Origin: Dermabacteraceae bacterium TAE3-ERU5
GTDB taxonomy: Bacteria > Actinomycetota > Actinomycetes > Actinomycetales > Dermabacteraceae
DNA length: 64,000 bases
Assembly (NCBI GenBank): GCA_019218375.1
Contig: JAHUUK010000001.1
Span: forward strand, 248,001-312,000
Direction: 5' to 3'
Part shown: positions 7,112 to 27,573 of the stretch, one piece after another
Position numbering within the stretch: position 1 is the stretch's first letter
How the letters are laid out: every line of letters begins with the position of its first letter
Notes under the pieces: model-generated
Databases searched by the model: none
Told to the model about the DNA's origin: nothing
What the model saw: only the letters and a program-made list of their open reading frames with translations
Translations under genes and position numbers: made by a program

Positions 7112-8050
7112 GTGAAGATTGGTATTGCTGGCGCAGGCGCCCTGGGGTCTCGCTTCGGCTACATGCTGTCCGAGGCGGGGTACGACGTCACCCTGATCGA
7201 TATGTGGGACGAACATATCGCGGCCATCCGCGAAAACGGTCTCATCATCGACTGGGAGGGTGAGGAGCGCGTGGCTCGGTTACCGATCTTCTATCCGCAC
7301 GAACTGGAGGGCACTTTCGATCTGGTCTGCTGCTTCACTAAGGCGATGGGGCTGGATGCGATGCTGTCGGCCATTGAACACACCATTAGCGAAAACACGA
7401 GCCTGCTCTGCCTGCTGAACGGAATCGGCCACCGCGATACGATCCTGAAGCACGTTCCCGTCAGCAACTTCATCATCGGTAACACCATGTGGACTGCCGG
7501 GCTAACCGGGCCGGGCCACGCGCACCTAATCGGCAGTGGCTCCGTATCGCTGGAAAACGTGGGCGAGGGAGAGGCCGCTAAGGCGCGGGCAATCGAAGTC
7601 GCACGGTTGCTTAGCGACGCCGGGCTGAACGCGCAGTATTCGGCCGACGTCAAGTACACGACCTACCGGAAAGCCGCGCTGAACGGAGTCGTAAATACCA
7701 TGTGCACCCTGCTGGAATGCAATATGGCCAGCTTCGGCGCCACGAGTTCCGCCGAACCGATCCTGCAGCAGATAGTGAACGAGTTTGCCGACGTGGCCGC
7801 GCACGAAGGGGTCGAGCTGGATCGCGACGAGGTAATGGCTAACGTGCGCACCACTTTCCCGGCCGACACCATCGGCAAGCACTACCCCTCCATGTACCAG
7901 GACCTGGTGCGCAACAACCGCCGCACCGAGGTGGATTACATCAACGGCGCGATTTCCCGTAAGGGTAAGCAGTACGGCGTGCCGACCCCGTTCTGCGATC
8001 TGGTAACGCTACTGGTGCACGCCAAGGAAGAGATCCGGGACGCCGCCTAA
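7112..8050 (+). CDS. Ketopantoate reductase (PanE/ApbA) family protein
   Basis: The 312-residue NADPH-dependent oxidoreductase has a Rossmann motif GAGALGS at 7-13. A helical C-terminal domain carries the conserved lysine in YRKAALNGVVN (about residue 187) and the NNRRTEVDYINGAI segment that binds the substrate in PanE. This family makes pantoate for coenzyme A, but paralogues with other 2-oxo-acid substrates are common. No other pantothenate gene lies nearby, so the exact substrate is open. Its ATG is preceded by GAAAGG. A copy of the intergenic repeat and a strong hairpin lie between it and the convergent sugar-acid operon. Confidence 0.82.
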   Translation: MKIGIAGAGALGSRFGYMLSEAGYDVTLIDMWDEHIAAIRENGLIIDWEGEERVARLPIFYPHELEGTFDLVCCFTKAMGLDAMLSAIEHTISENTSLLCLLNGIGHRDTILKHVPVSNFIIGNTMWTAGLTGPGHAHLIGSGSVSLENVGEGEAAKARAIEVARLLSDAGLNAQYSADVKYTTYRKAALNGVVNTMCTLLECNMASFGATSSAEPILQQIVNEFADVAAHEGVELDRDEVMANVRTTFPADTIGKHYPSMYQDLVRNNRRTEVDYINGAISRKGKQYGVPTPFCDLVTLLVHAKEEIRDAA

Positions 8051-8371: not shown

Positions 8372-9739
8372 TTAAATCTTTTCTAGCTGCACGGCCCTGG
8401 TTTCCTTGGCGAACAGGTAGGTGATGCCACCCATCGCCAGTAGCGCCGCGAAGAGGAAGAACGCCGGCGGCACCGCATCCAGGGTCGGCTTCGCTTTCAC
8501 GGCGGAGCCACCGATCAGGGCACCCATGAGCACGGGGCCGATGATCTTTGCGGTAGCGCCAATACCGTAACCGAGGCCGAGGCCGGTGGAGCGAACCTCG
8601 TTCGGGAACTGCTCAGCACCGAAAGCGTTCAGGATGCCGAACGCGCCATCACCGAACATCATGGCGATCAGGATGCCAGCGAAGAACATTTCACCGCTGG
8701 TGGACATGCCGGCAATAACGCAACCGACCGCACCGATCAGGCCGAACGACAGCATCACCATGCGGCGCCCGATGTAGTCCGACAGCCAGGCCGAGCCTAG
8801 ACGCCCCACCATGTCGGCGATGGAAACGAAGGTGAACAGCAGGCCCACGCTAGCGACGCTGTAGCCGTAGCCGTCCTTCAGCAGGGTCTGGCCCCACGAC
8901 TGGATGGTGAACGAACCGAGGATGAAGCAGAACGAACCGATCGTGATGATGGTGAGCGGCTTCAGATGCTCGCGGAAGAGCAGGCCGTAGCTGGCCTTCT
9001 TCTCGTCCTTGATTTCGGGCAGTGCCCCGACCTCGTTCTCCGGCACCATCAGCGCCCAGGCGTAGGCCCGACGCGCTTCGTCTTCACGCCCGTTAACCTG
9101 CAGGAAGCGGGGCGATTCGGGCACGTAACGCAGCCAGATGAGCAGGAACACCGGCAGGATGCCCAGCCCGATCAGGCCACGCCAGCCGAGCGGTTCCGCA
9201 AGCCACTGCTGCGCCTGCGCGCCCAGTAGCAGGCCGAACGGGATGAATACGGATGCCAGGCCAGCCAGCAGGCCGCGATGCTTCGCGGGCACGAATTCCT
9301 GCACGTAGGGGATGGAGGTGATGTTCAGGCCACCCACACCCATGCCTACGCCGACGCGCAGGATGGCGAGCATCCACCAGCCCCTGTCGGGAGTCACCAC
9401 GCAGAGCGCGGTGAATACGACCAGGACGACGATGCACCAGAAGAAGGAGCCGCGCCTGCCTAGTTTGTCGGAAAGCCTGCCCCAGACTATAGCGCCGGCC
9501 ACGGTGCCGAGGCCCGCGCAGGCCAGGATCGTGCCGGTTTCAAAACCGTTCAGGTTCCAGGGCTTTACCAGCAGGGAGACGACGAAGCCGATTAGGAAGA
9601 TGTCGAAGAATTCGGCAATGTTGCCGACCACGACCAGGCCGATAATCGACTTTTGGTTGCGGGTGAGTGGGCGGGAATCGATTTGTTCCGCGGCCGTTAG
9701 GCCCGCGGGGGGTTGTGTTGTTGTCATTTCGGTAGCCAA
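8372..9739 (-). CDS. MFS permease of the sugar-acid operon
   Basis: The 455-residue protein has 12 predicted membrane helices of the major facilitator superfamily. It carries the loop 2-3 motif GRLSDKLGRRG and the matching second-half motif GSAWLSDYIGRRM, as in metabolite:H+ symporters of the NiaP/aromatic-acid/sugar type. It is the last gene of the minus-strand operon starting at 13875, so it probably brings in the operon's substrate without phosphorylating it. That differs from classical ula systems, in which a PTS does both. The substrate is not readable from the sequence. Confidence 0.85.
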   Translation of the reverse strand: MATEMTTTQPPAGLTAAEQIDSRPLTRNQKSIIGLVVVGNIAEFFDIFLIGFVVSLLVKPWNLNGFETGTILACAGLGTVAGAIVWGRLSDKLGRRGSFFWCIVVLVVFTALCVVTPDRGWWMLAILRVGVGMGVGGLNITSIPYVQEFVPAKHRGLLAGLASVFIPFGLLLGAQAQQWLAEPLGWRGLIGLGILPVFLLIWLRYVPESPRFLQVNGREDEARRAYAWALMVPENEVGALPEIKDEKKASYGLLFREHLKPLTIITIGSFCFILGSFTIQSWGQTLLKDGYGYSVASVGLLFTFVSIADMVGRLGSAWLSDYIGRRMVMLSFGLIGAVGCVIAGMSTSGEMFFAGILIAMMFGDGAFGILNAFGAEQFPNEVRSTGLGLGYGIGATAKIIGPVLMGALIGGSAVKAKPTLDAVPPAFFLFAALLAMGGITYLFAKETRAVQLEKI

Positions 9740-9760
9740 TCTATGCGCCGGTGCAGAGCC

Positions 9761-10705
9761 TTACCGGATGATGTCTGTCGTGGTGGGAATGGAGAGCTCA
9801 GCGGGATTGATGTGCGTGAGGTCCCCATGGTGGGTGAGCGCATACTTGGCTACGCGCTTACCGAACTCGATCCCCTGCCGGACGTCTCCGGAAAGGAAAC
9901 CGTGCAGCGTGCCTGCGACGAAGCTGTCGCCCGCACCCGGACGGTCAATGATCGGCACTACCTCGACCGGGAAGTTTTCCTCCCCGTCGGGGCCGGAGGA
10001 ATAGACGCCGTTGGTCTGATCCGTCGAAACGACGTATTCGGCACCGAAGCGTTCGCGCAGTTTGCGTGAGCATTCCGCGCCCTCACCAACGATGCCGAAC
10101 ACTTCTTTCGCGTCTTTGCGCGAGCAGAACAGGATGCGCGCCTTTTCCGCTATCGGGGTCAGCACCTCGGCGGCGCGCTCGGCACTCCACAGCAGGCTGC
10201 GGTAGTTGACGTCGAGCGCGATGTCCACGCCGCGCTTTTCCGCTTCGTCTACGAAGTGGCGGATCACCCTGCAGGTGTTTTCAGTGAGCGCCGTGGTGAT
10301 GCCGGTGACGAACACGAGGCGGGTATCCAGCATGGAATCCCAGTTGATGTCCTCGATGCTGATGTCCCTGAACGGCGTGTGCAGCCGGTCGTAGATGACG
10401 CGGGAGGGCATGGGCGGTTCGCCCGGCTCCATGAAGTAGAGCGCGGTGCGGCCTTCCTCCACACGGATCATGTTGGAAAGGTCCACGCCGACCGAACGGT
10501 ATTCGGAAAGGCAGCGGCTCGCCAGATCTCCCTTGGGAAGCACCGAGCACCAGGATGCTTGCCGCCCGAGCTGGGACAGCACGCCGCACACGTTCGCTTC
10601 GGAGCAGGCTGCGGTCATGCGCAGGGTGCGGCAGTTCGAGAGTCGCTCCCCGCGAGGGGCGGTGAGGCGAATCTGGCCCTCACCGATAGAAGTAATATCG
10701 AACAT
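9761..10705 (-). CDS. PfkB-family sugar or sugar-acid kinase
   Basis: The 314-residue ribokinase-fold kinase has the catalytic GAGD at 257-260 (within DRPGAGDSF) and the segment DVNYRSLLW at 165-173. That segment recalls 2-keto-3-deoxygluconate kinases, suggesting an acidic or keto-sugar substrate. It starts one base before the end of the upstream epimerase gene's stop and is followed by the permease after 21 bases. In this operon it would supply the phosphate that a PTS would otherwise add during import. KdgK is an alternative, but no KDPG aldolase is nearby. Confidence 0.82.
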   Translation of the reverse strand: MFDITSIGEGQIRLTAPRGERLSNCRTLRMTAACSEANVCGVLSQLGRQASWCSVLPKGDLASRCLSEYRSVGVDLSNMIRVEEGRTALYFMEPGEPPMPSRVIYDRLHTPFRDISIEDINWDSMLDTRLVFVTGITTALTENTCRVIRHFVDEAEKRGVDIALDVNYRSLLWSAERAAEVLTPIAEKARILFCSRKDAKEVFGIVGEGAECSRKLRERFGAEYVVSTDQTNGVYSSGPDGEENFPVEVVPIIDRPGAGDSFVAGTLHGFLSGDVRQGIEFGKRVAKYALTHHGDLTHINPAELSIPTTTDIIR

Positions 10706-11374
10706 TTAGCTCACTCCTTCGGAAGCTTGCGCGGTTCCGTAGCGGTTTGTGTAGCGGTCAAAGTTAGCGGCGATTTCCTCTTCGGGAAGCTCGATAACTT
10801 TACCCATTAGGCGCGCCGCCCACACAGTGTGGGCGACGTCCTCCACCATCACTGCGGCCTGCAGGGCCTTGGTGATGCTGGGGCCGATGGTGAAAACACC
10901 GTGCTGCTGCATCAGGATCGCCGGGGAATGCCCGATGGAACGCAGCACCTCTTCGCCGATGGCGTCCCCGCCGATGCGGGCGTAGCCGCCGCACGGGACG
11001 GGCCCACCGAATTCGTCGGAGATAGCGGTCAGGCAGCAAGGAATCGGTTCTCCTAGCGCGGCCCAGGCGGTCGCGTAGGTGGAGTGGGTGTGCACCACGG
11101 AACGCACGTCACTCCTGCCCTTGTAGATGCCGATGTGGGAGCTGGTGTCCGACGACGGCCCGTGTTTTCCTTCGATGATCTTGCCGTCTAGGCCGACCAC
11201 CACCATGTCTTCCGGCGTCATCTGCGAATACAGCATGCCGGAGGGTTTAATTACGATCCGGTCGCCGGAGTCTGCCAGGGCCGACAGGTTACCGCCGGTC
11301 CACGCCACCAGCCCGTTGCGGGCCAGTTCCAGGTTGCCTTCGCAAACCTGTCTTTTTAGTTCGAGTAGCTCCAT
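10706..11374 (-). CDS. L-ribulose-5-phosphate 4-epimerase (UlaF/AraD type)
   Basis: The class II aldolase/epimerase-fold protein has 222 residues from the ATG at 11374, which follows GGGGAGAG. Residues match AraD numbering closely: D76, H95 and H97 for zinc (SSD, VHTHS), D120 (AISDE) as catalytic acid/base, another zinc histidine at 158 (QQHG), and a tyrosine near the C-terminus (NRYG). D76 in place of glutamate and the presence of D120 favour epimerase over fuculose-phosphate aldolase. It would convert L-ribulose 5-phosphate to D-xylulose 5-phosphate, which enters the pentose phosphate pathway. The gene lies 14 bases after the UlaE-like gene. Confidence 0.85.
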   Translation of the reverse strand: MELLELKRQVCEGNLELARNGLVAWTGGNLSALADSGDRIVIKPSGMLYSQMTPEDMVVVGLDGKIIEGKHGPSSDTSSHIGIYKGRSDVRSVVHTHSTYATAWAALGEPIPCCLTAISDEFGGPVPCGGYARIGGDAIGEEVLRSIGHSPAILMQQHGVFTIGPSITKALQAAVMVEDVAHTVWAARLMGKVIELPEEEIAANFDRYTNRYGTAQASEGVS

Positions 11375-11388
11375 TGCTCTCCCCCGTA

Positions 11389-12237
11389 CTAGATACTTTC
11401 CACCGCGTAGCCTGCGGCGGCGAGTTTTTGCTCGATGAAGTGGCGGGCGGATACGCAGGTCGCTATCGAATCCGGCGCGTCGTCGTTCCACATTTCGAGC
11501 ATGATCCGGCCCTGCCAGCGCTGGCGTGCCAGCTCTGTGAAGGCCGTATCGAAGTCGGCCACGCCCTGGCCGAACGGTATCCGCCGGGGCTCACCCGGCA
11601 GCACATCCTTTACGTGCAGGGCGACCATCCGCCCCTCCCCCGCAGCGAGTTCCTCGGTGGCTTCACCGCCGTGTTCGGCGATGTTGCCGACGTCCGGGTA
11701 ACACTGCAACCAGGGGCTGTCGCATTCGCGCACTACCGCCATCGCGTCCGGAATGGAGGCGATATCGTGGCCGTCCACGTTTTCGATGGCTAGCACGACG
11801 CCCTGGCATGCCGCGTAGGGCAGTGCGGCTTTCAGAGTGTCGATATAGCGTTCGCGGGCCGCCGGATCGTCGGCCTCGTAGTGGGCGTAATACCCGGCCA
11901 CCTGCACCACCGATACGCCGAGGTCGGCCGCCAGGTCGATCCCCTTGCGGTAAACCTCGAGCGCCTGGCGGCGCACCTCCGGGTCTGCCGAACCGGGCAT
12001 GATGCGCCTGTGCAGTGAGAGGCAGAGCGCCCCGATCTGCACCCCGGCGTCGCGGGCCGCCTCGCGCACCCGCAGGCGTTCCTCGGGGCTCCAGTCCAGC
12101 CGCGCCGCCCGCTCGGGGGTTTCGTCAATCGAAAGATCCACGAAACTGAACCCTGCCTCGCGTACCTGGGGGAAAAATTCCGGCCAGGGTGCCGACACGA
12201 GCGCTTTCTCGTAGATGCCGAGCCTGACGGTGTTCAC
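11389..12237 (-). CDS. L-xylulose-5-phosphate 3-epimerase (UlaE type)
   Basis: The 282-residue xylose-isomerase-like TIM barrel has the UlaE opening LGIYEKAL and FVDLSIDET and all four metal ligands, E152 (AIEN), D182 (YPDVGN), H208 (ALHVKD) and E248 (LEMW). Their spacing is the same as in E. coli UlaE. It would turn L-xylulose 5-phosphate into L-ribulose 5-phosphate for the next enzyme. Its start overlaps the stop of the UlaD-like gene by four bases (ATGA), showing translational coupling. Length is normal for the family. Confidence 0.9.
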   Translation of the reverse strand: MNTVRLGIYEKALVSAPWPEFFPQVREAGFSFVDLSIDETPERAARLDWSPEERLRVREAARDAGVQIGALCLSLHRRIMPGSADPEVRRQALEVYRKGIDLAADLGVSVVQVAGYYAHYEADDPAARERYIDTLKAALPYAACQGVVLAIENVDGHDIASIPDAMAVVRECDSPWLQCYPDVGNIAEHGGEATEELAAGEGRMVALHVKDVLPGEPRRIPFGQGVADFDTAFTELARQRWQGRIMLEMWNDDAPDSIATCVSARHFIEQKLAAAGYAVESI

Positions 12238-12884
12238 GGCCAGACCCTTTCGATGGCGTCGCGCATCTCCAAGGCGGCGGCCTCAGGATCGTCGGCCTTC
12301 ATGATGCCGCGCCCGGCGATGACCACGCCGACCGGGCGGCCCTTAAAGACGTCCAGCTCGTTCGCTTTGATGCCGCCCGTGACGGTGACGGTAAAGCCCA
12401 TCTCGGCGAGTTCACTAACGCGGGAAACGTCGGATTCACCCCAGGAGAGGTCGCCTGCGGCCTCGCGGTCGCGGGAACGCTTCACGATCACGTGCTTAAC
12501 GCCCAGTTCGCGCCAGGCGCGGGCGCGTTCGGCGCTGTAGGTTTCGCCCAGCTCCACCTGCACTTCGCCGCCGAACTCTTCGGCCACCTTTACTACCTGG
12601 CCGATGGTGGCGAGCGAGGCCCCGGCAACGCAGGAAACCCAGTCGGCACCGGCCTCGAAGCACTGGCGCGAGATCAGGCTGCCAGCTTCCGCGATGCGCA
12701 CGTCGGCCAGGATCGTTTTTTCGGGGTAGAGGGCGCGCACCTCGCGCACCACCTTCAGTCCCTCTGCGATCACCCAGATGGTGCCGCATTCGATGACGTC
12801 TACGTGGGCAACCGCCTTGTTGAGCGGGCCGAGCGCGGAGACCATATCGGTGGCGTCTACCGCCACCTGTAGGCGGGGCCGCAT
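12234..12884 (-). CDS. UlaD-like decarboxylase with altered active site
   Basis: The 216-residue TIM barrel of the orotidylate-decarboxylase suprafamily aligns along its length with E. coli UlaD/SgbH (3-keto-L-gulonate-6-phosphate decarboxylase): LQVAVD, EVRALYPEKTILAD, QVELGE, WGESDVS and FTVTVTGG. E32, D61, E111 and R138 correspond to UlaD E33, D62, E112 and R139. Three key positions differ, however: R63 replaces K64, E66 replaces D67 (the motif reads DVRIAE, not DxKxxD), and K135 replaces H136. I checked both stretches on the DNA. It may decarboxylate a related 3-keto acid phosphate. The exact reaction is uncertain. Confidence 0.82.
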   Translation of the reverse strand: MRPRLQVAVDATDMVSALGPLNKAVAHVDVIECGTIWVIAEGLKVVREVRALYPEKTILADVRIAEAGSLISRQCFEAGADWVSCVAGASLATIGQVVKVAEEFGGEVQVELGETYSAERARAWRELGVKHVIVKRSRDREAAGDLSWGESDVSRVSELAEMGFTVTVTGGIKANELDVFKGRPVGVVIAGRGIMKADDPEAAALEMRDAIERVWP

Positions 12885-12885
12885 C

Positions 12886-13875
12886 TCAAGCCTCCTTGCG
12901 AACGGTGAAGAAGCGCTGGCCGTTGGTGCACAGCAGCTTGTTCACGTATTCGGGGTCGAAGCCTTCCGCGATCATGCGCGGGCCGTCCACGGAGGCGTTG
13001 TAATCGACGCCGGTGACCGCTCCGTATGCCTTCTGGTAGCCGCGTTTGCCGGAGTCGGTGCCGAGCAGGATGCGATCGCCGTAGCCCTTTTCGCCCAGTT
13101 CGCGCAGTTCCATGATGCGGTTGCTGTCGGGCTGGTACTTGATGCGGTAGGTGCCGTCGATTTCCAGCCAGGCCCCGGTATCGAGGATCTGCTGCAGGTA
13201 GTAGACGTCCGCGTTGCGCTGGATGTGGCCGATGGCGATCTGGTCGGCGGGTACGCCGAGCTTGATCATTTCCTGCGCCTGTTCGAGGCCGCAGGTGCCG
13301 TAGGTGGTATGGGTGTTGATCGGGACGCCGGTCTCGATGGAGGCGATAGCGCAGGCCTCCATGCACTTGCGTTCGAACTTGGTGATCTTGCCGTAGGCGG
13401 TGGCGACCTTAATAACGCCCGCCTTGTATTCGGTGCGGTCCACAATCGGGCCGGAGTAGTCGTGGCGGTCGATGCCGACGGTGATGTCGTCAATCAGCAA
13501 CTGTGCGATCTGATCTACCGTGTAGCGGCTAACCCAGTGGGACTGGGTCTCCAGGTAGACGTGCTCGCGGTGGAAGCCGGTCGCGGCGATCACCTGCAGG
13601 CCGGGCACTGCGCGGTTTACCTCTGCCAGCTTGTCGAGGTCGCGGCCGCAGTTTGCGGGGCACATATCGACGACGGTGCCGCCGTCGGCCCAACGCTTGG
13701 AGGCGTCTACGAAGTAGTTGGCCTCTTCGATTGCCTTGTCTACGTCGGCCAGCTGGTGATCGGCGTCGATGTAGACCTCGCCCGCGCCTACGCGGATCAG
13801 GTGGTCGTGGGCGTTCACCACGCCCAGGGTTGCGGGGTCTACGTCGCCGAGGATGGTGCGTGCGAACTTAGCCAT
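12886..13875 (-). CDS. Phosphotriesterase-family (COG1735) lactonase
   Basis: The 329-residue amidohydrolase-fold protein has the full binuclear metal set of the family: H23 and H25 (NAHDHL), carboxylated lysine K156 (GVIKVAT), H189 (INTHT), H217 (GHIQRN) and D274 (LGTDSGKRGY). Characterised relatives in sugar operons open phosphorylated pentono- or hexonolactones. Here it could take the place of UlaG, the unrelated ascorbate-6-phosphate lactonase. It is the first gene of the operon, and the ATG at 13875 follows AAGGAGA at good spacing. One base separates it from the UlaD-like gene. Lactonase activity is inferred from context. Confidence 0.82.
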   Translation of the reverse strand: MAKFARTILGDVDPATLGVVNAHDHLIRVGAGEVYIDADHQLADVDKAIEEANYFVDASKRWADGGTVVDMCPANCGRDLDKLAEVNRAVPGLQVIAATGFHREHVYLETQSHWVSRYTVDQIAQLLIDDITVGIDRHDYSGPIVDRTEYKAGVIKVATAYGKITKFERKCMEACAIASIETGVPINTHTTYGTCGLEQAQEMIKLGVPADQIAIGHIQRNADVYYLQQILDTGAWLEIDGTYRIKYQPDSNRIMELRELGEKGYGDRILLGTDSGKRGYQKAYGAVTGVDYNASVDGPRMIAEGFDPEYVNKLLCTNGQRFFTVRKEA

Positions 13876-13966: not shown

Positions 13967-13983
13967 GCGCAAATATTTGCAGC
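13967..13983 (+). promoter_or_regulatory. Operator-like palindrome O1 of the sugar-acid operon
   Basis: GCGCAAATATTTGCAGC contains a perfect 12-base palindrome (GCAAATATTTGC, 13969-13980). It lies 92 bases upstream of the lactonase start. On the opposite strand, the site at 14084 matches it at 16 of 17 bases. It is probably bound by the adjacent SorC-type regulator. Confidence 0.65.
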
Positions 13984-14083: not shown

Positions 14084-14100
14084 GCTGCAAATATGTGCGC
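14084..14100 (-). promoter_or_regulatory. Operator-like site O2 overlapping the regulator start
   Basis: Read on the minus strand this is GCGCACATATTTGCAGC, the same as O1 with one change and in opposite orientation. It covers the regulator's ATG (14093), which suggests autoregulation. Confidence 0.6.
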
Positions 14101-15061
14101 AGATTCCGTCTCTAATGAACGCGACCGAGTGCGTGAACTGCTGCAGGTTGCGCGTATGTATTACGAACAGGAGATGGACCAGGGCGATATCGCGGAGCGC
14201 ATGAACTGCTCCCGCTCGCGCGTTTCCCGCCTACTGAAAGAGGCGCGCGAAAAGCAGATGGTGCGCACCACGGTGCACCACCCGCTGGAGCAATCGTTCG
14301 AACTGGAAAGGAAGCTGCGGCGCAAGCTCGGGCTGGAACGGGTGTACGTGGCCCCCCAGGAAACGGGCGCGCGGCCGGAGCAAACCGTGGGACGCCTGGC
14401 CGCGGAAACGATAGCGCGCGCCGGTCACCGCCAGACCGCGCTCGCCCTTTCCAACGGCCGGGCGGTGGCAGCCGTGGTGGATGCTATGCCGCAGCAGCAG
14501 TGGCCGCTCTCCATGGTGTGCCAGATGATCGGCTCCTACGGCGGTTCGGCGCATCACCTGCTCGATTCCCCCGATCTGTGTCGGCGCATGGCGGGCAGGC
14601 TAGGGGGCGGCTACCGGGCGCTCCCCGTGCCGATCGTGCTGCGCTCGGCCACTGCCGCGCGCGGGGTGCGCCGGGAAGAAATGGTGGTGACCACGCTGGA
14701 ACTGGCGGCGCGGGCCGACATAGCGGTGGTCGGGGTCGGTGCCGTCGGCCAAGGCCCAACCAGCGAACTGCTGCGCCCGTTCATGACCAGCGAACTGGTC
14801 AACGAACTGCGCAGGCAGGGCGCGGTGGCACACATTTCCGGGCACCATTTCGACGCGCACGGCAGGCACGTGCCCACCGCCCTGTGCGAGCGCACCATCG
14901 CTATGGAACCGGAGCGGCTGGCCAGCATAAAACTGCCGATGCTGGTGGCCTGGGGCAGCGAAAAGGTGCCCGCCATATATGCCGTGGTGCGTAGCGGACT
15001 AAACCTGGCGCTAACCACGGACGAGGCGACGGCGACGATGCTGCTTAGCTACCAGCCATAG
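14093..15061 (+). CDS. SorC/DeoR-type sugar-responsive transcriptional regulator
   Basis: The 322-residue protein has an N-terminal helix-turn-helix (about residues 22-52, YYEQEMDQGDIAERMNCSRS then RVSRLLKEA). A long C-terminal domain of the SorC sugar-binding type follows (LALSNGRAVAAVVDAM, GVGAVGQGP, and a final region with VVRSGLNLALTTDEATA). Such regulators bind a phosphorylated sugar and control the adjacent operon. It is divergent from that operon, and the two matched palindromes lie in the shared 217-base region. AAAGG lies 8 bases before the ATG. It ends 9 bases from the convergent ABC ATPase gene. Confidence 0.88.
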   Translation: MCADSVSNERDRVRELLQVARMYYEQEMDQGDIAERMNCSRSRVSRLLKEAREKQMVRTTVHHPLEQSFELERKLRRKLGLERVYVAPQETGARPEQTVGRLAAETIARAGHRQTALALSNGRAVAAVVDAMPQQQWPLSMVCQMIGSYGGSAHHLLDSPDLCRRMAGRLGGGYRALPVPIVLRSATAARGVRREEMVVTTLELAARADIAVVGVGAVGQGPTSELLRPFMTSELVNELRRQGAVAHISGHHFDAHGRHVPTALCERTIAMEPERLASIKLPMLVAWGSEKVPAIYAVVRSGLNLALTTDEATATMLLSYQP

Positions 15062-15070
15062 CTATCCCGG

Positions 15071-15886
15071 TTAAACCACCGCTGCGGGATGCCCCTGCGC
15101 GTGCGGCACCACCATCGGGGTGCCGGTCTGCGGGTCCGGGATTACGTCGCAAGGCAGTTGGTAGACGTCCTCCACCAGTTCGGCGTTCATAACCTCGGCC
15201 GGGTCTCCCGCCGCCACCACCCTGCCGTCTTTCATCACGATCAGGTGGGTGGCGTAACGGCAGGCCTGGTTTAGATCGTGCAGCACCGCAACCACGGTAC
15301 GCCCGCCCTCTCTGCGCAGCCTGTCGCTCAGGTTGAGCAGGGAATACTGGTGGGCGATGTCCAGGAAGGTGGTCGGTTCATCGAGCAGCAGCACGTCAGT
15401 TTGCTGGGCCAGCAGCAGGGCCAGCCAGACGCGCTGACGCTGGCCGCCGGAGAGTTCCTGCACCACGCGCTGCGAAAGGTCTAGCACCCCGGCGGTTTCC
15501 ATCGCCTCGGCAACAACCCGCTCGTCCTCCGCGCTCCAGCGGGAGAACAAGCCCTGGTGGGGGCTGCGGCCACGCGCCACCAGGTCCACCACGCGAATCC
15601 CGTCGGGCGCTATGGCCGACTGCGGCAGCAGGCCCAGGTGTCGCGCCAGCTCTCCGGTCGGCCACTTGGCAAGTTCCCTGCCTTCCAGCAAAATCTCCCC
15701 CGCGCGCGGGGACAGCAGACGGGCCATGGCTTTCAGCACGGTGGATTTGCCGCAGGCGTTCGGCCCGAGAATTACCGTGAAGCTGCCGCGCGGCACCTCC
15801 AGAGAAATATCGCGGCAGATGTCGGCTCCCCCGCCGTAGCCGAGGGTGATTCCCCGCAGGGAGAGTGCCGCTTGTTTGTCTGTCAC
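15071..15886 (-). CDS. Iron-siderophore-type ABC transporter, ATPase
   Basis: The 271-residue FecE/FhuC-like ATPase powers import through the two permeases encoded upstream. It has Walker A GPNACGKST (41-49), signature LSGGQRQR, Walker B VLLLDEPT and the H-loop VLHD. I chose the GTG at 15886 because GGGAGG lies 7 bases before it and it overlaps the permease stop (GTGA); a longer start at 15913 would run deep into the permease gene. It is the last gene of a five-gene unit. The cargo could be a ferric siderophore or haem, and the sequence does not decide. Confidence 0.9.
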   Translation of the reverse strand: MTDKQAALSLRGITLGYGGGADICRDISLEVPRGSFTVILGPNACGKSTVLKAMARLLSPRAGEILLEGRELAKWPTGELARHLGLLPQSAIAPDGIRVVDLVARGRSPHQGLFSRWSAEDERVVAEAMETAGVLDLSQRVVQELSGGQRQRVWLALLLAQQTDVLLLDEPTTFLDIAHQYSLLNLSDRLRREGGRTVVAVLHDLNQACRYATHLIVMKDGRVVAAGDPAEVMNAELVEDVYQLPCDVIPDPQTGTPMVVPHAQGHPAAVV

Positions 15887-16968
15887 TTTCGGACCTCCCG
15901 AATCAGCAGCCACACGAAGTAGCCGCCGCCCAGGCTTACGGTTACCACCCCGACGGGTAGCGGGCTGGGCGGATAAATGTTTTGCGCGATCATGTCGCTA
16001 ACGAGAAGCAGCACCCCGCCCATCAGGGCGGTGCTGAAGATCGGCACGCCAGCGCAGTTCTCGAGCCTGCGGGCGATCTGGGGAGCCACCAGCGCCACGA
16101 AACTGATCGGCCCGGCTACCGCTGCACAGATCGCCGTCAGGAACACGGCGAGCACGATGAGCAGGGGCCGTTTCAGGCTCAGCCTGCCGCCGAGGGTGGT
16201 GGCCAGTTCGTCCCCCATTTCGCTGAGCCGCATGGCGGGAAGCAGGAAGGAAAGCAGCAGGATGCTCAGCAGCACCATCGCGACGGCGGGATACACGTTC
16301 TCCGCCGTCACCCCGTTCAGACTGCCCGCGCCCCAGAGTGATACCTGCAGGGCCTGTTCGATATCCGCATTAACGATCATCCAGGTGGTGAGGGACGACA
16401 GCATGGCGGAAACCGCGATACCGATAATGATGAGACGGAAGCTGCGGAAGGTGCCGTTTACACGCGAAAGCAGATAAACCGCGAAGGCTGTGGCCATGCC
16501 GCCCAGGAAGGCGCCGAGGGCGGTGGTGACGAAAGTGGCCTGGGTATAGAGGATGATCGCGGTGGCACCGGCGAAAGCACCGGAGTTGAAGCCAATCACG
16601 TCCGGGCTGCCCAGTGGGTTTCGGGTTAAGGTCTGGAACACGGCACCGGATACTCCGAGTGCGGCCCCCAGCCCGAGGGCGGCGATGGCGCGCGGCAGGC
16701 GCCAGGTGCGTACCACCAGTTCCTGGCCAGGGTCTCCCTTTCCGAGCAGGGCATCCAGGACCTCACCGCTGGTCAGGGTGTAATCGCCGGTTCGCAGCGC
16801 GGTGATGAAGCAAGCGAGCGAAATAATTGCGAGCACTAACGCCGTGGTGATGCTGCGCTTGTCCCAATAACCGCTGAACAGGTTGTTACGCAGCAGCAGG
16901 ATGGGCCGACCGTAGTCGATTTTCCCCCTTCGCGTCTGCTCCCCCGCGCGGGCGGTCTGCGCGCTCAC
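15883..16968 (-). CDS. Iron-siderophore-type ABC transporter, FecCD permease 2
   Basis: The 361-residue membrane subunit of the FecCD/BtuC family has about ten helices after a basic cytoplasmic leader. It carries the typical RLPRAIAALGLGAALGVSGAVFQTLTRNPLGSPDVIGFNSGA segment and the later GPISFVALVAPQIAR that contacts the ATPase. It pairs with the permease encoded just upstream. The GTG start overlaps that gene's stop by four bases, and its own stop overlaps the ATPase start. Confidence 0.92.
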   Translation of the reverse strand: MSAQTARAGEQTRRGKIDYGRPILLLRNNLFSGYWDKRSITTALVLAIISLACFITALRTGDYTLTSGEVLDALLGKGDPGQELVVRTWRLPRAIAALGLGAALGVSGAVFQTLTRNPLGSPDVIGFNSGAFAGATAIILYTQATFVTTALGAFLGGMATAFAVYLLSRVNGTFRSFRLIIIGIAVSAMLSSLTTWMIVNADIEQALQVSLWGAGSLNGVTAENVYPAVAMVLLSILLLSFLLPAMRLSEMGDELATTLGGRLSLKRPLLIVLAVFLTAICAAVAGPISFVALVAPQIARRLENCAGVPIFSTALMGGVLLLVSDMIAQNIYPPSPLPVGVVTVSLGGGYFVWLLIREVRK

Positions 16969-17960
16969 AGCCCGGCCAGCCTTGGCCGACGGGCAAGCAC
17001 GATCAGCACGGGCGCGCCCAGGAAGGCGGTGACGATACCGACCTGCAGCTCGCCAGTGGAGGCGACGCGGCCCAGGATGTCGCTAAACAGCAGCAGCACA
17101 GGCGCGGCCAGCACCGTGAAGGTCATGATTCGCATGTTGTTTGCTCCGACTAATGCGCGGGCGAAATGGGGCACCATCAGGCCGATGAAACCGATGGGAC
17201 CGGCGATCGCGGTTCCCGCTCCCGCCAGCAGGGTCACCGCCACGATGGCGGCGCTGCGGGTGCGCGACAGGTTGGTTCCGAGGGAAGACGCCATTTCGTC
17301 CCCGAGCGCCAGCGCATCCAGCTTTTTGCCGATCACCACCGCAATCACGATGCCTAGCAGCACCAGCGGGGCACCCACCGCGATGGCGTCAAAGCCGCGA
17401 TTCACGAGCGATCCCGCTCCCCAGAAGCGCATCTTGTCGAAGACTTCCTTATGGGTCAGGGTGATGCCGCTCGAAATGCCGGTAAGCAGCGCTCCGAGCG
17501 CTACGCCCGCGAGGGTGATCGTGACCGGGTCGGCCTTGCGCCTCACCCCTCCCCCGATGGCGTAAACCGCCACCGTGGCAAGCACCGCGCCGGCGAGCGC
17601 GAACCAGATATAGCCGAGCGGGGTCACGGCGTTAAAGAGCAGCACGCCAAGCACCACGGCGAACGATGCTCCCGCGTTAACGCCGAGGATGCCGGGGTCC
17701 GCCAGCGGGTTGCGGGTAAACGCCTGGATTAAGGCTCCGGCCACCCCGAATGCGGCACCGACCACGATCCCCGCGAGGGTGCGGGGCACGCGGGAGCTGT
17801 GCACGACGATGCTGTTTGCGCTGTCGCCACCGTGAACCAGCGCCTGCCAAACCTCCGCCGCAGGGATCGGGCGCGCCCCGATCAGCAGGCTGGCGGCCGC
17901 CACCGCCACAAGAGCGAGGGCGGCCGCCAGGTATGCCAGGGTGATGCGACTAGTCGACAA
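16965..17960 (-). CDS. Iron-siderophore-type ABC transporter, FecCD permease 1
   Basis: The 331-residue FecCD-family permease shows SRVPRTLAGIVVGAAFGVAG, ALIQAFTRNPLADPGILGVNAGAS and the coupling segment GPIGFIGLMVPHFAR. It forms the heteromeric channel with the next gene product. The start is a TTG at 17960 that overlaps the end of the binding-protein gene by 11 bases, indicating coupled translation. Confidence 0.92.
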   Translation of the reverse strand: MSTSRITLAYLAAALALVAVAAASLLIGARPIPAAEVWQALVHGGDSANSIVVHSSRVPRTLAGIVVGAAFGVAGALIQAFTRNPLADPGILGVNAGASFAVVLGVLLFNAVTPLGYIWFALAGAVLATVAVYAIGGGVRRKADPVTITLAGVALGALLTGISSGITLTHKEVFDKMRFWGAGSLVNRGFDAIAVGAPLVLLGIVIAVVIGKKLDALALGDEMASSLGTNLSRTRSAAIVAVTLLAGAGTAIAGPIGFIGLMVPHFARALVGANNMRIMTFTVLAAPVLLLFSDILGRVASTGELQVGIVTAFLGAPVLIVLARRPRLAGL

Positions 17961-18957
17961 CGTTCTTCGCGTTTTCTACCTGGCCCGCGAACTCGTTCAG
18001 CCAGGCCGCATAGTTTTCGTAGGTGTAGGGGCGCTTGTCGTCCCATTCGTACGTCTGCCCGGCCTTCGCGGCGGCGGTCTGCTTGAATAGGGCGTTATCA
18101 AGCACGCCCTCAGAACCTTGGGTGTTGGTGAGGATGATGTCGGCCTTGAGGGCAGGCATGTTTTCCCAGGTTTCCTCCGCCCACGGTCCCTCCTCGATAA
18201 CGGGGCCGACGGTCTTGATGCCCAGTTCCTTGAGCAGCTTCACCTGTGCCATGCGGTCCATGCCGAAGTAGACCTTGTCCTTGGTGGGGGCGGTGAGGGC
18301 GACGGTGATTTCGGGACGTGCCGCGAATGCCTTCTTCAGGCGCTCCTTGGCGGCCTCGTAGTCCTGCTTGCTCTTTTTGACCTCGGGAGTATCGACCTTG
18401 CCGCCGAGGGATTTAGCGAGGTCCTGATACATGCCGATGATGCCGTCCACCGTCTGATCGCCGGTGCGGCCGCCGAAGTTAATCGCCAGGTAGGGCGCGA
18501 CCTTGGTGGCCTGCGCGGTCACCTTTTCGTCCCACCAGGTGTAGCCGCTGGCGTCCTTGTTGCCGTAACCGATCAGCAGATCGGGCTTGAGGGAGGCGAG
18601 CTTTTCCAGGCTGAATTCGCCGTCCTTGCCGACGACCGTCATGCTGGATACGTCCACGCCCTGCATGGCCTTTTCTTCCTGGCCGTAACCCCACATGCCG
18701 ACGGGACGGACGCCGTAGGGCCACAGAGCCTGGGTCGAGTAAGCGTCTGCGACGATACGTTCCGGGGCCTTATCCAGTTTGACGGTCTTACCGTCGTAGC
18801 CGGGAGCGTCGTAGCTCCAGGGGCCGGAGGGGGTTTCGGCGGCGGGAGCCTTAGCGGCGGAAGAAGTACCCGCGGCTTCTTTCTTTTCGCCTCCGCAAGC
18901 GGTCAGGGTGAGGCCACCGAGCGCGGCGGCAAGAATGAAGGAACGACGGTTAAGCAC
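17950..18957 (-). CDS. Siderophore-type substrate-binding lipoprotein, copy 2
   Basis: The product has 335 residues from the GTG at 18957, which follows AGGAG with a 5-base gap; the 24 residues before it have no signal character. The leader LNRRSFILAAALGG ends in the lipobox LTAC with the lipidated cysteine at 21, so the protein is anchored outside the membrane. The FepB/FhuD-like fold follows (MTVVGKDGEFSLEKLASLKPDLLIGYG). It is very close to the gene just upstream, with the same leader and the same GPWSYDAPGYDGKTVKLDK stretch, and differs mainly in the C-terminal ligand-contact half. This suggests duplication and divergence. Confidence 0.9.
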   Translation of the reverse strand: MLNRRSFILAAALGGLTLTACGGEKKEAAGTSSAAKAPAAETPSGPWSYDAPGYDGKTVKLDKAPERIVADAYSTQALWPYGVRPVGMWGYGQEEKAMQGVDVSSMTVVGKDGEFSLEKLASLKPDLLIGYGNKDASGYTWWDEKVTAQATKVAPYLAINFGGRTGDQTVDGIIGMYQDLAKSLGGKVDTPEVKKSKQDYEAAKERLKKAFAARPEITVALTAPTKDKVYFGMDRMAQVKLLKELGIKTVGPVIEEGPWAEETWENMPALKADIILTNTQGSEGVLDNALFKQTAAAKAGQTYEWDDKRPYTYENYAAWLNEFAGQVENAKNVVD

Positions 18958-19043
18958 AAAAACTCCTAGGGGAAAGCTGAGAGAAACCGGGCGCGGGCAG
19001 CGCCCAACACGCGGAAGCGCATCGGACACTGCCCGGCAGGAAA

Positions 19044-23457: not shown

Positions 23458-25215
23458 GTGGCCCTCTACGGCAACTACAGGCTGGTGGACGAGTTCGGCA
23501 GGCGGCTGCGCGACACGGCGCTGCTGGGCGGGGTGTCCCTGCTCGACGGCCGCCCCATATGGAACGCCGACAATTTCGCTGAGCTGGACAGGTGCTACTG
23601 CCAGCAGCCGGACGATTCGGCAGACACTTTCGATACGAAGCTGCGCAGGCAGCTTGCCGGTGCCTCCCCGGACGCGGTGCAGCTTTTCGCGGAGCTTTAC
23701 GCGGTGCATTTCGCGGCGCTCGGCAACGTAACCAGTAGTAAGAAGCTCGTCATGATGGATATTCTCCTCGATATAGCCGAGTCACCGATACAGCTTCTGG
23801 AGAGCACTAAGCCGACGTATGAGGGCGCGGCTTTCCTCAGGGAAGTGTTCACCCACGGCGGCGTGCTGAACGGCGGGCCGGGCTATAACATATCCCGCTG
23901 GCGGCAGATGCAGCACCTCGTCTACCTGGGGCGGGCCTGGTGCGCACTGCCCGACGGTGAGAAGCGGAGAATCCTGGCCGACCCCGAGGGGCTGGCCGAT
24001 TCCCTGCACGGCCTGGTCCCGGACGACGTGCGCGAGCCGCAGATAGAGAAGGTCCTGCTGTACCTGCTCGCGCCCGACTTTTACGTACCGATCTGCTCTT
24101 CCAGGCATCTTGCGAAGATTTTGTCGGCTTTCCCAGACAAGGTGCCGCCGGGGCTTGAGGGGTCCTCCCCGCAGCGGCAGGCGTCGGCCATCAGGGACGC
24201 ACTGCGGCGCGAGCGCGGCGAAGAGTGGGACTTCTACGACGATCGCGAGGAGTGGGACGCCTCCACCGCGAAGGCGGAGCCGCCGTCACCCAGAACCCCA
24301 GCCCAGGCCGTGGATGCCCCTGAGGACGCCCCCGGCGGCGCCCTACCCGAGTTCACCGCGCAGGACGCCAGCAACCTGCTCGTGCCCGAGGAGTGGCTGG
24401 GCCGCGTGCGGGGGCTGCTGCAACGGCGCAGGCAGGTCGTGTTCCAGGGGCCGCCCGGGACCGGAAAAACCTACCTGGCGCGTAAGATAGCGGCCCGCCT
24501 GGCGGGGACCAGCAAGCGGGTGCGGCTGGTGCAGTTCCACCCGGCCTACACCTACGAGGACTTCTTCGAGGGGTTCCGCCCCACCCCGGAGGGCCGGCTG
24601 GAGCTGCGCCCCGGGCCGCTGCGGCTGCTGGCGGAGGAGGCCGAGGAGCAGCCCGAGCTGAACTTCTTCCTGGTGATCGACGAGATTAACCGCGGCAACC
24701 TGGCAAAGATCTTCGGCGAGCTGTACTTTCTGCTCGAGTACCGCAGCGAGGGCGTGCAGCTGATGTATTCGCAGCAGCGCTTCACCCTGCCGGAGAACCT
24801 GTTCATCATCGCCACCATGAACAGCGCCGACAGGTCCATCGCGCTGGTGGACGCCGCGATGCGCAGGCGTTTCGCCTTCCTCGACCTGGACCCCGGTTGC
24901 GAGCCGACTGCGGGCCTGCTCGGCCGCTACTGCCGCCGGGCTGGTGTGGGCGGCCAGCTGGACGCCCTGTGGCGGGAGCTGAACCGGCGCGTGCGGGAGC
25001 GGAACCCCGAGTCTCAAGTAGGCCCCTCCTATCTCATGTCGGAGGAACTGACGGCGAGCGGGCAGTTGGATATGGCTTTGCTGGCGGAGATCTGGGAAAC
25101 AGAGGTACTGCCTCAGCTCAGGGAGTCTTTCTACGGCGACGAGGAATGGGTCGATCGTGAGCTGTCCCTGGCTGCTCTGACCACGGGATGGGCTACGCCG
25201 GAAGGCGCAAATTGA
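23458..25215 (+). CDS. McrB-like AAA+ restriction GTPase subunit
   Basis: The 585-residue motor subunit of an McrBC-type modification-dependent restriction system hydrolyses nucleotide to drive McrC along DNA. The N-terminal half (about 1-290) is an unrecognised, probably DNA-recognising region, followed by a Pro/Ala-rich linker. The AAA+ domain has Walker A GPPGTGKT (331-338), the McrB hallmark LVIDEINRGN (Walker B, about 405-413), sensor TMNSADRS and AMRRRF. The GTG start follows AGGAGG. AGG arginine codons are frequent, unlike the CGC-rich neighbours, which hints at transfer. It overlaps mcrC. Confidence 0.9.
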   Translation: MALYGNYRLVDEFGRRLRDTALLGGVSLLDGRPIWNADNFAELDRCYCQQPDDSADTFDTKLRRQLAGASPDAVQLFAELYAVHFAALGNVTSSKKLVMMDILLDIAESPIQLLESTKPTYEGAAFLREVFTHGGVLNGGPGYNISRWRQMQHLVYLGRAWCALPDGEKRRILADPEGLADSLHGLVPDDVREPQIEKVLLYLLAPDFYVPICSSRHLAKILSAFPDKVPPGLEGSSPQRQASAIRDALRRERGEEWDFYDDREEWDASTAKAEPPSPRTPAQAVDAPEDAPGGALPEFTAQDASNLLVPEEWLGRVRGLLQRRRQVVFQGPPGTGKTYLARKIAARLAGTSKRVRLVQFHPAYTYEDFFEGFRPTPEGRLELRPGPLRLLAEEAEEQPELNFFLVIDEINRGNLAKIFGELYFLLEYRSEGVQLMYSQQRFTLPENLFIIATMNSADRSIALVDAAMRRRFAFLDLDPGCEPTAGLLGRYCRRAGVGGQLDALWRELNRRVRERNPESQVGPSYLMSEELTASGQLDMALLAEIWETEVLPQLRESFYGDEEWVDRELSLAALTTGWATPEGAN

Positions 25216-26417
25216 CCCTGCTGTTGCGCGAGGCTGGGCTGCACGCATCGCTCCCCCTCACGACTACCCAGGCCAGGTGGCTGGGGCGGAACGGGATCGG
25301 TGTGGCAGACACAGTGCAGCCTGGCCGGGAACCGGGCACGTTCGATGTGCGGGTGGGTAACCTGGCGGGAGCGGTGAGTGGCCACGGGCTGGACGTGGTT
25401 ATTGAGCCGAAGCTGCCGGTTTCTTCGCTGCTTTGGCTGGTCGGGTATGCCACTTGCGGGATGCGGTTGGAGCCGCACGCGGTGGCCGGGCGCAGTGACC
25501 TGACATCGGGTTTCGCCGCGCTGTTCTTGGACGTGGCACGGGAGGCGATAGAGCCCGGTTTGTTACGCGGCTACTGGCCGCTCGACGAACAGACTTCTGC
25601 TCTGCGCGGGCGTATCCGCATGGCGGAGCAGGTGAGCAGGCATCACGGCAGGCTTTACCCGTTGGAGGTGAGCCATGAAGAGCACGGGGTGGATATTCCC
25701 GAGAACCGAATTTTGCGGGCCGCCACCGGGGAACTTTTACGTACGGCCCGCGCTGGATCGGCGGCACCGATTGGTGTTGGTTTACGCAGGGTTTATCGGA
25801 CGTTGGCTGAGGCCGGGCCTCTACGTGCCGCGGATTTGTCTGTTTGGCGGCCGACGCGTCTGAATTCCCGTTACCACCGCGTGCTTAAGCTTTGCGAGCT
25901 GGTGCTATCTGAGCGCGGAGTCGAGGCGCGGGCCGGGCAAATCGAGACGCGCGGGTTTTTAATCAACACGCCGCAGGTTTTTGAGGCCGCGTTCGCCCGG
26001 GCTCTAGGCGAGCAGTCGGATTCTTTGCTTGCCGGGTGTCGCGTGGAGACGCAGCGTAGTCTGCCTTACGTGGAGGAACTGCCCGACTATCGGCTCCGCC
26101 CGGACATAGTGCTCACACGGGGCGGCGCACCGGTGGCGGTACTGGACACAAAATATAAGCGGGCCGGCTCCGGGCCGTCCCGCGAGGACATGTATCAGAT
26201 GGTGACGTATGCGCTCTGCCACGGGCTGCGCGACGCCCACCTGGTCTACGCGGAGCCGCTACCGCCGGGGCTACCTGAGGTGCTGCACGTAAGCGAGGCC
26301 GGGGTCAGGGTGCACCTGCACGGGATGGACCTGGGGCAGGGGCCGGACGGGTTCTTGGCGCAGGTTTCGGCTCTAACTGAGGAGCTTCTGACACCATGGC
26401 GACGCTCCGCGCCATAA
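25212..26417 (+). CDS. McrC-like nuclease subunit
   Basis: The product is about 401 residues from a TTG at 25212 that overlaps the mcrB stop and has GGAAGG 6 bases upstream; an ATG at 25188 is possible but has no ribosome binding site. The C-terminal PD-(D/E)xK site is visible as YRLRPDIVLTRGG followed by VLDTKYKR, the metal-binding D and D-x-K of McrC endonucleases. The middle has the conserved HEEHGVDIPENRIL and the YHRVLKLCELVL region. With McrB it would cut DNA carrying a modified base. No cognate methyltransferase is nearby, as expected for this type. Confidence 0.9.
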   Translation: MTLLLREAGLHASLPLTTTQARWLGRNGIGVADTVQPGREPGTFDVRVGNLAGAVSGHGLDVVIEPKLPVSSLLWLVGYATCGMRLEPHAVAGRSDLTSGFAALFLDVAREAIEPGLLRGYWPLDEQTSALRGRIRMAEQVSRHHGRLYPLEVSHEEHGVDIPENRILRAATGELLRTARAGSAAPIGVGLRRVYRTLAEAGPLRAADLSVWRPTRLNSRYHRVLKLCELVLSERGVEARAGQIETRGFLINTPQVFEAAFARALGEQSDSLLAGCRVETQRSLPYVEELPDYRLRPDIVLTRGGAPVAVLDTKYKRAGSGPSREDMYQMVTYALCHGLRDAHLVYAEPLPPGLPEVLHVSEAGVRVHLHGMDLGQGPDGFLAQVSALTEELLTPWRRSAP

Positions 26418-27573
26418 CCTCGCTAGATATACGGGTCGGCGATCCGCGAGTTTTCTGAACCTTAGTACCAAGACTAGATGGGCCTGTTATTCTCTGCCGG
26501 AGGATCCCTTACCTTCAGTTTGCACAATACGTTAGGCGCAACACTTTGTGCGAGCACCTAAATCGCCGAGTGCAGGATCTATATAGCGCTTGCGCATTGA
26601 CCTTCAAAACGCACACAGCACGCACGGTGACGCTCTGGCTATGGCAAATCTACTCAGGCACTATAAGTTTCCTTCCGTGGAGCAACGTCTTTGCAAAAGC
26701 CGGACACTACCTCTGACCAGTTACCGTAAGCTCTTCTGCGGCCCCACGTTCCTACCTTCTACCCCATACCGGTTCGCGCGAGGGACGCCCATATGCCCGG
26801 CTCGATTCCCTCATTTTCCGTATGCTGAAGCCTGAAAACGCTGGCCTAAATTTCTCTCTGCCACGCTTGAGAGGGCACTTCTGGACAGGTTCTTGACCGA
26901 GCATGAGAAAGACCAGTCACTGTCAGACGCTGCAGAATTTGGCTCCAGCAACGAAAAGGAGAATTCGCTGCATAGGCAACCTAGTGGCACTCGAGGAACG
27001 GGTTTAAGAGAACGGTGTTTCACAGACGACGAGCGCAGCAAAATATTTTCTGTAGCGGAAATACTGGAAATGTAAGAATCTGTTGCCAGCGAGATTCTCA
27101 CTACATACCGGGCTGAAGCTGTTAAAGTGGGACCTGGCGGCAAGTCTTGGACAGGACACAAAGCTGGAACTGAGAGATAAGGCCTGCTTTACGGGCGTGA
27201 TGAAACGCCGCTCCAATAGCTGGAAGCAAAGGGAGCAGGAAAAGGATACGTGCCGTACAGCCTGGTAAATCAACTACCCTACTGGTAGCATCAAAGATAA
27301 CACTCTCATCTACACAACCAATAGATCAAAGAAAAGTACATCCCCGTAGTCACGAAAGGTGGCTTTGAAAATGTTTACGGCAATAAATAAAGTTTCCCCA
27401 AACATACAGCATGCAGTTTACTGCCAATAAACACTTCTTGCCTTCTCCCGACACGGCTCGCGTAATGTCGGCTTTTCGATTCCCCAGATCGATCCAAAGC
27501 TAAAACAGCAATCTCATGCAATACACCCAATTTCTAAATTGGTTCAAATGGACACATAACCAAGGATGATTAC
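26418..27573. other. 1.15-kb stretch without a convincing gene
   Basis: Composition falls sharply towards AT here. A frame from about 26836 to 27075 reads LDRFLTEHEKDQSL... then stops, and continues after the stop as SEILTTYRAEAVKVGPGG up to another stop near 27178. This may be a decayed gene of unknown type, but nothing is recognisable. No tRNA, inverted terminal repeat or transposase is seen. AAGGA at 27563-27567 is the ribosome binding site of the next gene. Confidence 0.4.

Follow-up and report, generated by a model that had tools for sequence, protein, structure and literature searches.

Architecture of the operon

A 64,000-nt stretch of the genome of Dermabacteraceae bacterium TAE3-ERU5 (contig JAHUUK010000001.1, positions 248,001–312,000; hereafter the window) contains an operon in which homologues of enzymes of the L-ascorbate (ula) pathway are encoded together with a PfkB-family kinase and a major facilitator superfamily (MFS) permease (Table 1). 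A first-pass annotation, made from the sequence of the window, had described six minus-strand genes with overlaps or short gaps, and both the coordinates and the Pfam families bear this out. The gene for the phosphotriesterase (PTE)-family lactonase is followed after a 1-nt gap by the UlaD-like gene, which overlaps the UlaE gene by 4 nt; UlaE and AraD are separated by 14 nt, AraD and PfkB by 0 nt, and PfkB and MFS by 21 nt, giving an intergenic spacing of −4 to +21 nt. The earlier gene list was right for these six genes and omitted a divergent regulator of the SorC family. The permease scores 205 bits against TIGR00895, below the cut-off of 418.

Table 1 Features of the ula-like operon and its regulatory region (positions within the window)
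Feature	Position	Strand	Evidence and comment
PTE-family (amidohydrolase) lactonase, 329 aa	12886..13875	-	PF02126 151 bits; predicted ascorbate-6-phosphate (phospho-furanose) lactonase
UlaD-like (KGPDC) decarboxylase, 216 aa	12234..12884	-	PF00215 102 bits (OMPdecase/HUMPS); DxRxxE replaces DxKxxD; Lys at H136 position
UlaE-like L-xylulose/L-ribulose-5-phosphate 3-epimerase, 282 aa	11389..12237	-	AP_endonuc_2 (Pfam); NF009688 329.9 bits
AraD/UlaF-like L-ribulose-5-phosphate 4-epimerase, 222 aa	10706..11374	-	Aldolase_II (Pfam); NF005123 312 bits
PfkB-family kinase, 314 aa	9761..10705	-	PF00294 100 bits; predicted ascorbate (6-O) kinase
MFS permease, 455 aa	8372..9739	-	PF00083 (Sugar_tr/MFS) 164 bits; predicted ascorbate importer
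Divergent SorC/DeoR-type sugar-binding regulator	14093..15061	+	PF04198 181 bits; in 67/70 loci; predicted operon control
Candidate operator: perfect 12-nt palindrome GCAAATATTTGC	13969..13980		Palindrome search

Conservation of the cassette and exchange of kinase and phosphotransferase system

We scanned species genomes with an alignment of the lactonase, took the best 80 of 203 loci and added 5 loci from whole-genome searches; after two duplicates were dropped, 83 loci remained, of which 70 are actinobacterial. The first-pass annotation had proposed a genome search for the six-gene order and for a linked UlaABC phosphotransferase system (PTS). The order recurs in about 70 actinobacterial genomes, including Bifidobacterium, Actinomyces, Cutibacterium and Corynebacterium, which far exceeds chance, and among UlaD-bearing loci an Ula-type PTS is linked in 10, which lack PfkB. 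The genes are usually arranged as PTE-UlaD-UlaE-AraD-PfkB-MFS, divergent from SorC, with AraD at times terminal or inverted. Across the actinobacterial loci we detected SorC in 67/70, UlaD in 69/70, UlaE in 67/70, AraD in 61/70, PfkB in 68/70 and MFS in 65/70; of the two loci that lack PfkB, one lies on a cut contig and the other is apparently decayed. Bifidobacterium subtile (L112:8824-10525) has an apparently decayed locus, in which the regulator and a lactonase match over residues 4-177 were found and the rest of the cassette was not.

The kinase and the PTS are distributed in a complementary manner. Among UlaD-bearing loci, PfkB is present in 68 of 69 actinobacterial loci versus 0 of 10 others, all of which are PTS loci. 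Mycoplasmas and Lentisphaerota show the order PTE-UlaA-UlaB-UlaC-UlaD-UlaE-AraD without PfkB or MFS, and one metagenome-assembled genome (MAG) of the Bacillota encodes PTE-UlaD-UlaE-AraD with UlaC/UlaA-like genes ~7 kb further, likewise without PfkB or MFS. Among actinobacteria the importer differs while PfkB is constant: a dipeptide-type ABC transporter in one locus (L083) and an iron-type ABC transporter in another (L111), both read from translations, take the place of the MFS permease. The earlier proposal that import proceeds through the MFS protein, phosphorylation through the PfkB kinase and ring opening through the PTE-family enzyme finds its support in this comparative context, in which PTS loci lack PfkB and MFS and PTS-free loci carry PfkB together with MFS or ABC. 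An Anaerolineaceae locus (L110) carries PTE, UlaE and UlaABC-like genes, and UlaD was not detected within the stretch read.

The description 'PTS-independent' holds at the locus, as the operon contains no UlaABC; Enzyme I and one UlaA-family Enzyme IIC (EIIC) exist elsewhere in the genome. This EIIC is the only one of its family in the genome and lies ~140 kb away in a 2-keto-3-deoxygluconate (KDG)/uronate operon. We considered and rejected a hidden UlaABC in the genome: the EIIC belongs to the KDG/uronate operon, and the sole EIIA_2 match (contig C5) adjoins an UlaB-like open reading frame and another SorC regulator, with no ula cluster. UlaC/B/A-like genes that follow the cassette in B. psychraerophilum (L076) were likewise rejected as a direct PTS link, as they are preceded by a LacI-type regulator, HPr and Enzyme I, and the UlaA is 27% identical.

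The EIIC gene of the window genome (~117179-118369 in L131, G000:C1:108000-126000; PF03611 341 bits; 23% identity to E. coli UlaA) shares its operon with genes for a KDPG aldolase, a KDG-type PfkB kinase, KduI-, KduD- and cupin-like proteins and an IclR-type regulator (names from translations). It has no adjoining IIA/IIB and may act as a secondary transporter.

Active sites of the epimerases, the lactonase and the kinase

Both epimerases exceed the cut-offs of their curated families (317 bits for NF009688, 251 bits for NF005123), and their top PDB matches are E. coli UlaE (3cqh) and AraD (1jdi), respectively. Alignment with solved structures is unambiguous for UlaE and AraD as well as for UlaD and the lactonase. 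The metal ligands E152, D182, H208 and E248 of UlaE are kept in at least 97% of 68 actinobacterial homologues and in E. coli UlaE; D76, H95, H97, D120 and H158 of AraD are kept in at least 97% of 62 actinobacterial homologues and in E. coli UlaF. The residues that the first-pass annotation had quoted for the two enzymes are correct in the numbering of the window and conserved among homologues. Comparison of copies from PfkB-bearing loci (kinase-linked) with copies from PTS loci (PTS-linked) revealed no position of UlaE that is fixed differently between the two groups; therefore, UlaE is expected to act on L-xylulose 5-phosphate as usual.

The lactonase matches the structures 3msr/3ovg best (E 1.5e-60) and also 3pnz, and the ligands of its binuclear metal site (H23, H25, K156, H189, H217, D274) are conserved. 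It scores 244.6 bits against NF045706, the equivalog of the phospho-furanose lactonase MS53_0025, compared with a cut-off of 630 bits, and hence represents the same family but another equivalog. The five phosphate contacts reported for MS53_0025 (3ovg), K217, K244, Y245, R275 and Y278, map at a constant offset of 2 to K219, K246, Y247, R277 and Y280 of the solved chain. The window lactonase has R220, K246, Y247, K277 and Y280 at these contacts, that is, two conservative Lys/Arg swaps. Both swaps, K220R and R277K, belong to 11 positions at which kinase-linked and PTS-linked lactonases are fixed differently. Since the phosphate contacts are kept, a phosphorylated substrate is likely, and the kinase should therefore act before the lactonase.

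The nearest solved relatives of the kinase are KDG kinases (2afb, 4gm6, 1v19). Residues Y105, R107 and R169 and the base D260 are kept in 70 kinases and correspond to Y103, R105, R167 and D251 of the Thermus thermophilus KDG kinase, where the Tyr-Arg-Arg set contacts the substrate. The conserved residues fit an acidic sugar substrate without identifying it. A literature search for 'L-ascorbate kinase' found no paper.

Linkage of the kinase to UlaG

Two actinobacterial loci carry true UlaG (61–68% identical to E. coli UlaG) together with the PfkB kinase. A Propionibacteriaceae MAG (L079; 5278-8691) contains a PfkB-MFS-UlaG operon, its UlaG being 61% identical to the E. coli protein, directly beside SorC and PTE-UlaD-UlaE-AraD, and thus encodes two unrelated lactonases in one locus. 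In genome G757 (L136/L137, G757:C7:35500-68000), UlaG (68% identity to the E. coli protein) lies with a dipeptide-type ABC importer next to SorC, UlaD, UlaE, PfkB and a LysR-type regulator; no PTE or MFS was found in the stretch read, which represents a further PTS-free variant. UlaG acts on ascorbate 6-phosphate. Therefore, the kinase in both loci most likely makes ascorbate 6-phosphate.

The window genome itself gave no UlaG match. A class-wide survey of 395 genomes gave no match to the UlaG query at E 1e-50, a result that is uninformative alone; UlaG of L079 used as a query found one match in 347 genomes of the order, showing that the search is able to find UlaG. In an order-wide sample of the same 347 genomes seeded on UlaD instead of PTE, UlaD occurs in 15, where 14 copies adjoin PTE and one, that of G757, has UlaG. 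Replacement of UlaG by a PTE-type enzyme has a proposed precedent in swine mycoplasmas, which lack UlaG and in which a phosphotriesterase-like gene (MHP_7448_0377) was named as the likely replacement (PMC4866288).

The first-pass annotation had left ascorbate, a gulono- or galactono-lactone or another sugar acid as candidate substrates. We saw no dehydrogenase in the conserved cassette, and since the lactones need oxidation to the 3-keto level, ascorbate is favored from that list and gulono- and galactono-lactone become less likely. A PanE-like oxidoreductase (7112-8050) was rejected as the missing dehydrogenase, as it adjoins the operon only within the genus.

A substituted motif in the UlaD-like decarboxylase

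The best structural match of the UlaD-like protein is E. coli 3-keto-L-gulonate 6-phosphate decarboxylase (KGPDC; 1kv8), and it is 45% identical to E. coli UlaD. D11, E33, D62, K64, D67, E112, H136 and T169 are among the aligned functional residues of KGPDC, and the D-x-K-x-x-D motif is shared with 3-hexulose-6-phosphate synthase (HPS) and orotidine 5′-monophosphate decarboxylase (OMPDC) (PMC5980557). K64R and D67E are present in the window protein and in each of the 72 kinase-linked copies with data, and Lys and Asp occupy the two positions in each of the 12 copies that are PTS-linked or from E. coli; two duplicate records and one copy interrupted by a frame break are counted here. Every copy read in the order-wide UlaD sample, G757 included, is likewise DxRxxE, and HPS homologues from other actinobacteria retain D-K-D (rows read on the correct strand only). 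At the position of H136, 50 kinase-linked copies have Lys and 22 have His, and E33, D62, E112, R139, T169, G171, G191 and R192 are retained. The earlier assignment as UlaD-like stands as far as homology is concerned; the loss of the canonical Lys and Asp had gone unnoticed and makes the decarboxylation step less secure than the family name suggests.

Six positions of UlaD are fixed differently between the groups, four of which (K64R, D67E, I87V, C88A) belong to a published list of 24 active-site positions (hypergeometric P ~0.0015, a count that ignores relatedness). In the UlaD tree, kinase-linked copies fall into two clades, the placement of the smaller having a support of 0.40; the clades are 44–47% identical to each other versus 39–45% to E. 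coli UlaD. All kinase-linked rows of the alignment share a one-residue insertion near W148 that is absent from PTS-linked rows, and its presence in both clades favors a single origin. Because the clades are distant and yet share Arg, Glu and the insertion, the motif change is old and maintained. We favor a compensating pair that would preserve the reaction, because the charge is kept and both side chains lengthen; the substrate or the reaction of the DxRxxE enzyme may also be altered. As a model of enzyme evolution the suprafamily is well studied, and nature here provides a K64R/D67E experiment of its own: one group, with unchanged pathway neighbors, has exchanged the motif common to OMPDC, KGPDC and HPS.

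Proposed pathway and alternative interpretations

From sequence comparison we propose, with a probability of roughly 0.7, that the operon encodes an L-ascorbate (ula) pathway that is independent of the PTS. L-Ascorbate would enter through the MFS protein and be converted by the PfkB kinase to ascorbate 6-phosphate, with phosphorylation presumably on O6. Opening of the 1,4-lactone by the PTE-family lactonase would give 3-keto-L-gulonate 6-phosphate, which the UlaD-like enzyme, with its Arg-Glu pair in place of Lys-Asp, would decarboxylate to L-xylulose 5-phosphate. UlaE would convert L-xylulose 5-phosphate to L-ribulose 5-phosphate, and AraD would yield D-xylulose 5-phosphate, which feeds into the pentose phosphate or the phosphoketolase pathway. 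Control of the operon would fall to the SorC protein. The first-pass annotation had the gene layout right and probably also its biological significance.

Several known systems resemble the proposed one. The classical ula regulon of E. coli (ulaG/ulaABCDEF) has homologous UlaD, UlaE and AraD/UlaF steps, the same gene order and the same expected intermediates; it uses the UlaABC PTS and UlaG instead of MFS, PfkB and PTE, and differs further in having UlaR instead of a SorC regulator and in lacking the DxRxxE motif in UlaD. Mycoplasma PTE-UlaABC-UlaD-UlaE-AraD operons (MS53_0025 family) share a homologous PTE lactonase (~36–40% identity) together with UlaD, UlaE and AraD, but rely on a PTS and a DxKxxD UlaD and contain neither PfkB nor MFS. 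The E. coli yiaK-S operon for 2,3-diketo-L-gulonate likewise provides a PTS-independent, kinase-dependent entry to paralogues of UlaD, UlaE and UlaF (SgbH, SgbU, SgbE), but employs a TRAP importer, the reductase YiaK, the FGGY kinase LyxK and a DxKxxD SgbH, and has no lactonase. With PfkB-family KDG kinases, the operon kinase shares the fold family, the substrate-binding Tyr/Arg/Arg set and the catalytic Asp, whereas its genomic partners differ.

Several observations weigh against ascorbate catabolism through this route. The kinase stays below every curated cut-off, its nearest characterized group being KDG kinases (203.4 versus 440 bits for the NCBIfam KDG kinase model), and the UlaD-like protein stays below the NCBIfam KGPDC/UlaD cut-offs (239.7 versus 250 and 200.9 versus 294 bits). 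The activity known for the close lactonase relative MS53_0025 is on pentono-1,4-lactone 5-phosphates. In L079, where UlaG and PTE co-occur, the two lactonases may not be interchangeable. The PfkB/PTS split is confounded with phylogeny, as every DxRxxE copy comes from an actinobacterium. Of the residues listed as functional in KGPDC/HPS (PMC5980557), Lys64, Asp67 and often His136 are missing from the UlaD-like enzyme. Finally, the SgaR regulon of B. bifidum, assigned to L-xylulose/L-xylonate (PMC4746261), may be this same cassette, which would then carry an earlier and different annotation.

Another reductone or 3-keto-aldonolactone, such as erythorbate or a substituted ascorbate, might be degraded by the same logic, so that the altered UlaD motif and the exchanged phosphate ligands in the lactonase would reflect the substrate. 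The clustering of UlaD group-fixed changes (4/6) at listed active-site positions and the reciprocal, group-fixed lactonase swap (K220R, R277K) are in line with this idea, which we nevertheless consider unlikely: no position of UlaE is fixed differently between the groups, the same kinase and DxRxxE UlaD occur in linkage with authentic UlaG orthologues, and Arg for Lys and Glu for Asp preserve charge as compensating changes would. Less probable still is a simple aldonate or aldonolactone as substrate (L-gulono-, L-galactono- or pentono-lactone), with oxidation by an unlinked dehydrogenase. The activity of MS53_0025 on pentono-1,4-lactone 5-phosphates and the resemblance of the kinase to sugar-acid kinases speak for such a substrate, but a dehydrogenase would be required before UlaD and the cassette shows none, the PanE-like gene being a neighbor only within the genus, and pentonates would lead to tetruloses, which are not UlaE substrates.

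An improbable reading, to which we give the least weight, is that the UlaD-like protein has a new activity within the OMPDC suprafamily and that the pathway diverges at this step. The DxKxxD motif, kept in structures of KGPDC, HPS and OMPDC (PMC5980557) and in HPS homologues, occurs in 0 of 72 kinase-linked copies; however, the eight residues from E33 to R192 listed above are retained, and the flanking UlaE and AraD steps require L-xylulose 5-phosphate.

Under the ascorbate proposal, the operon is a widespread form of the ula pathway that includes a predicted ascorbate kinase and a motif-substituted decarboxylase subfamily. Many actinobacteria that live with hosts, such as bifidobacteria, oral Actinomyces and skin Cutibacterium, are thereby predicted to catabolize vitamin C by a route distinct from the known ula PTS. 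Only tentatively, and with considerable doubt, do we suggest that actinobacteria use both a dedicated PfkB-family ascorbate kinase, not described in the literature searched, and an UlaD subfamily in which the catalytic Lys-Asp pair is replaced pairwise by Arg-Glu. If the Arg-Glu pair did alter reaction or substrate, a new function in the OMPDC suprafamily would result.

Regulatory region and neighboring genes

A second copy of the candidate operator (92%) lies at 14087-14098 and spans the start codon of the regulator. The element is weakly echoed in other loci, where it is partly confounded with the first codons of the regulator. The regulator is followed at 15071-19029 on the minus strand by iron-siderophore-type ABC genes (ATPase, two permeases and binding protein, from translations). 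Further downstream, 23458-29667 encodes a McrB-like AAA ATPase, a McrBC component and an OLD-family (AAA_15 + TOPRIM) protein and is likely an acquired defense island; the G+C content is 0.52–0.59 between 24 and 32 kb, lower than in the remainder of the window.

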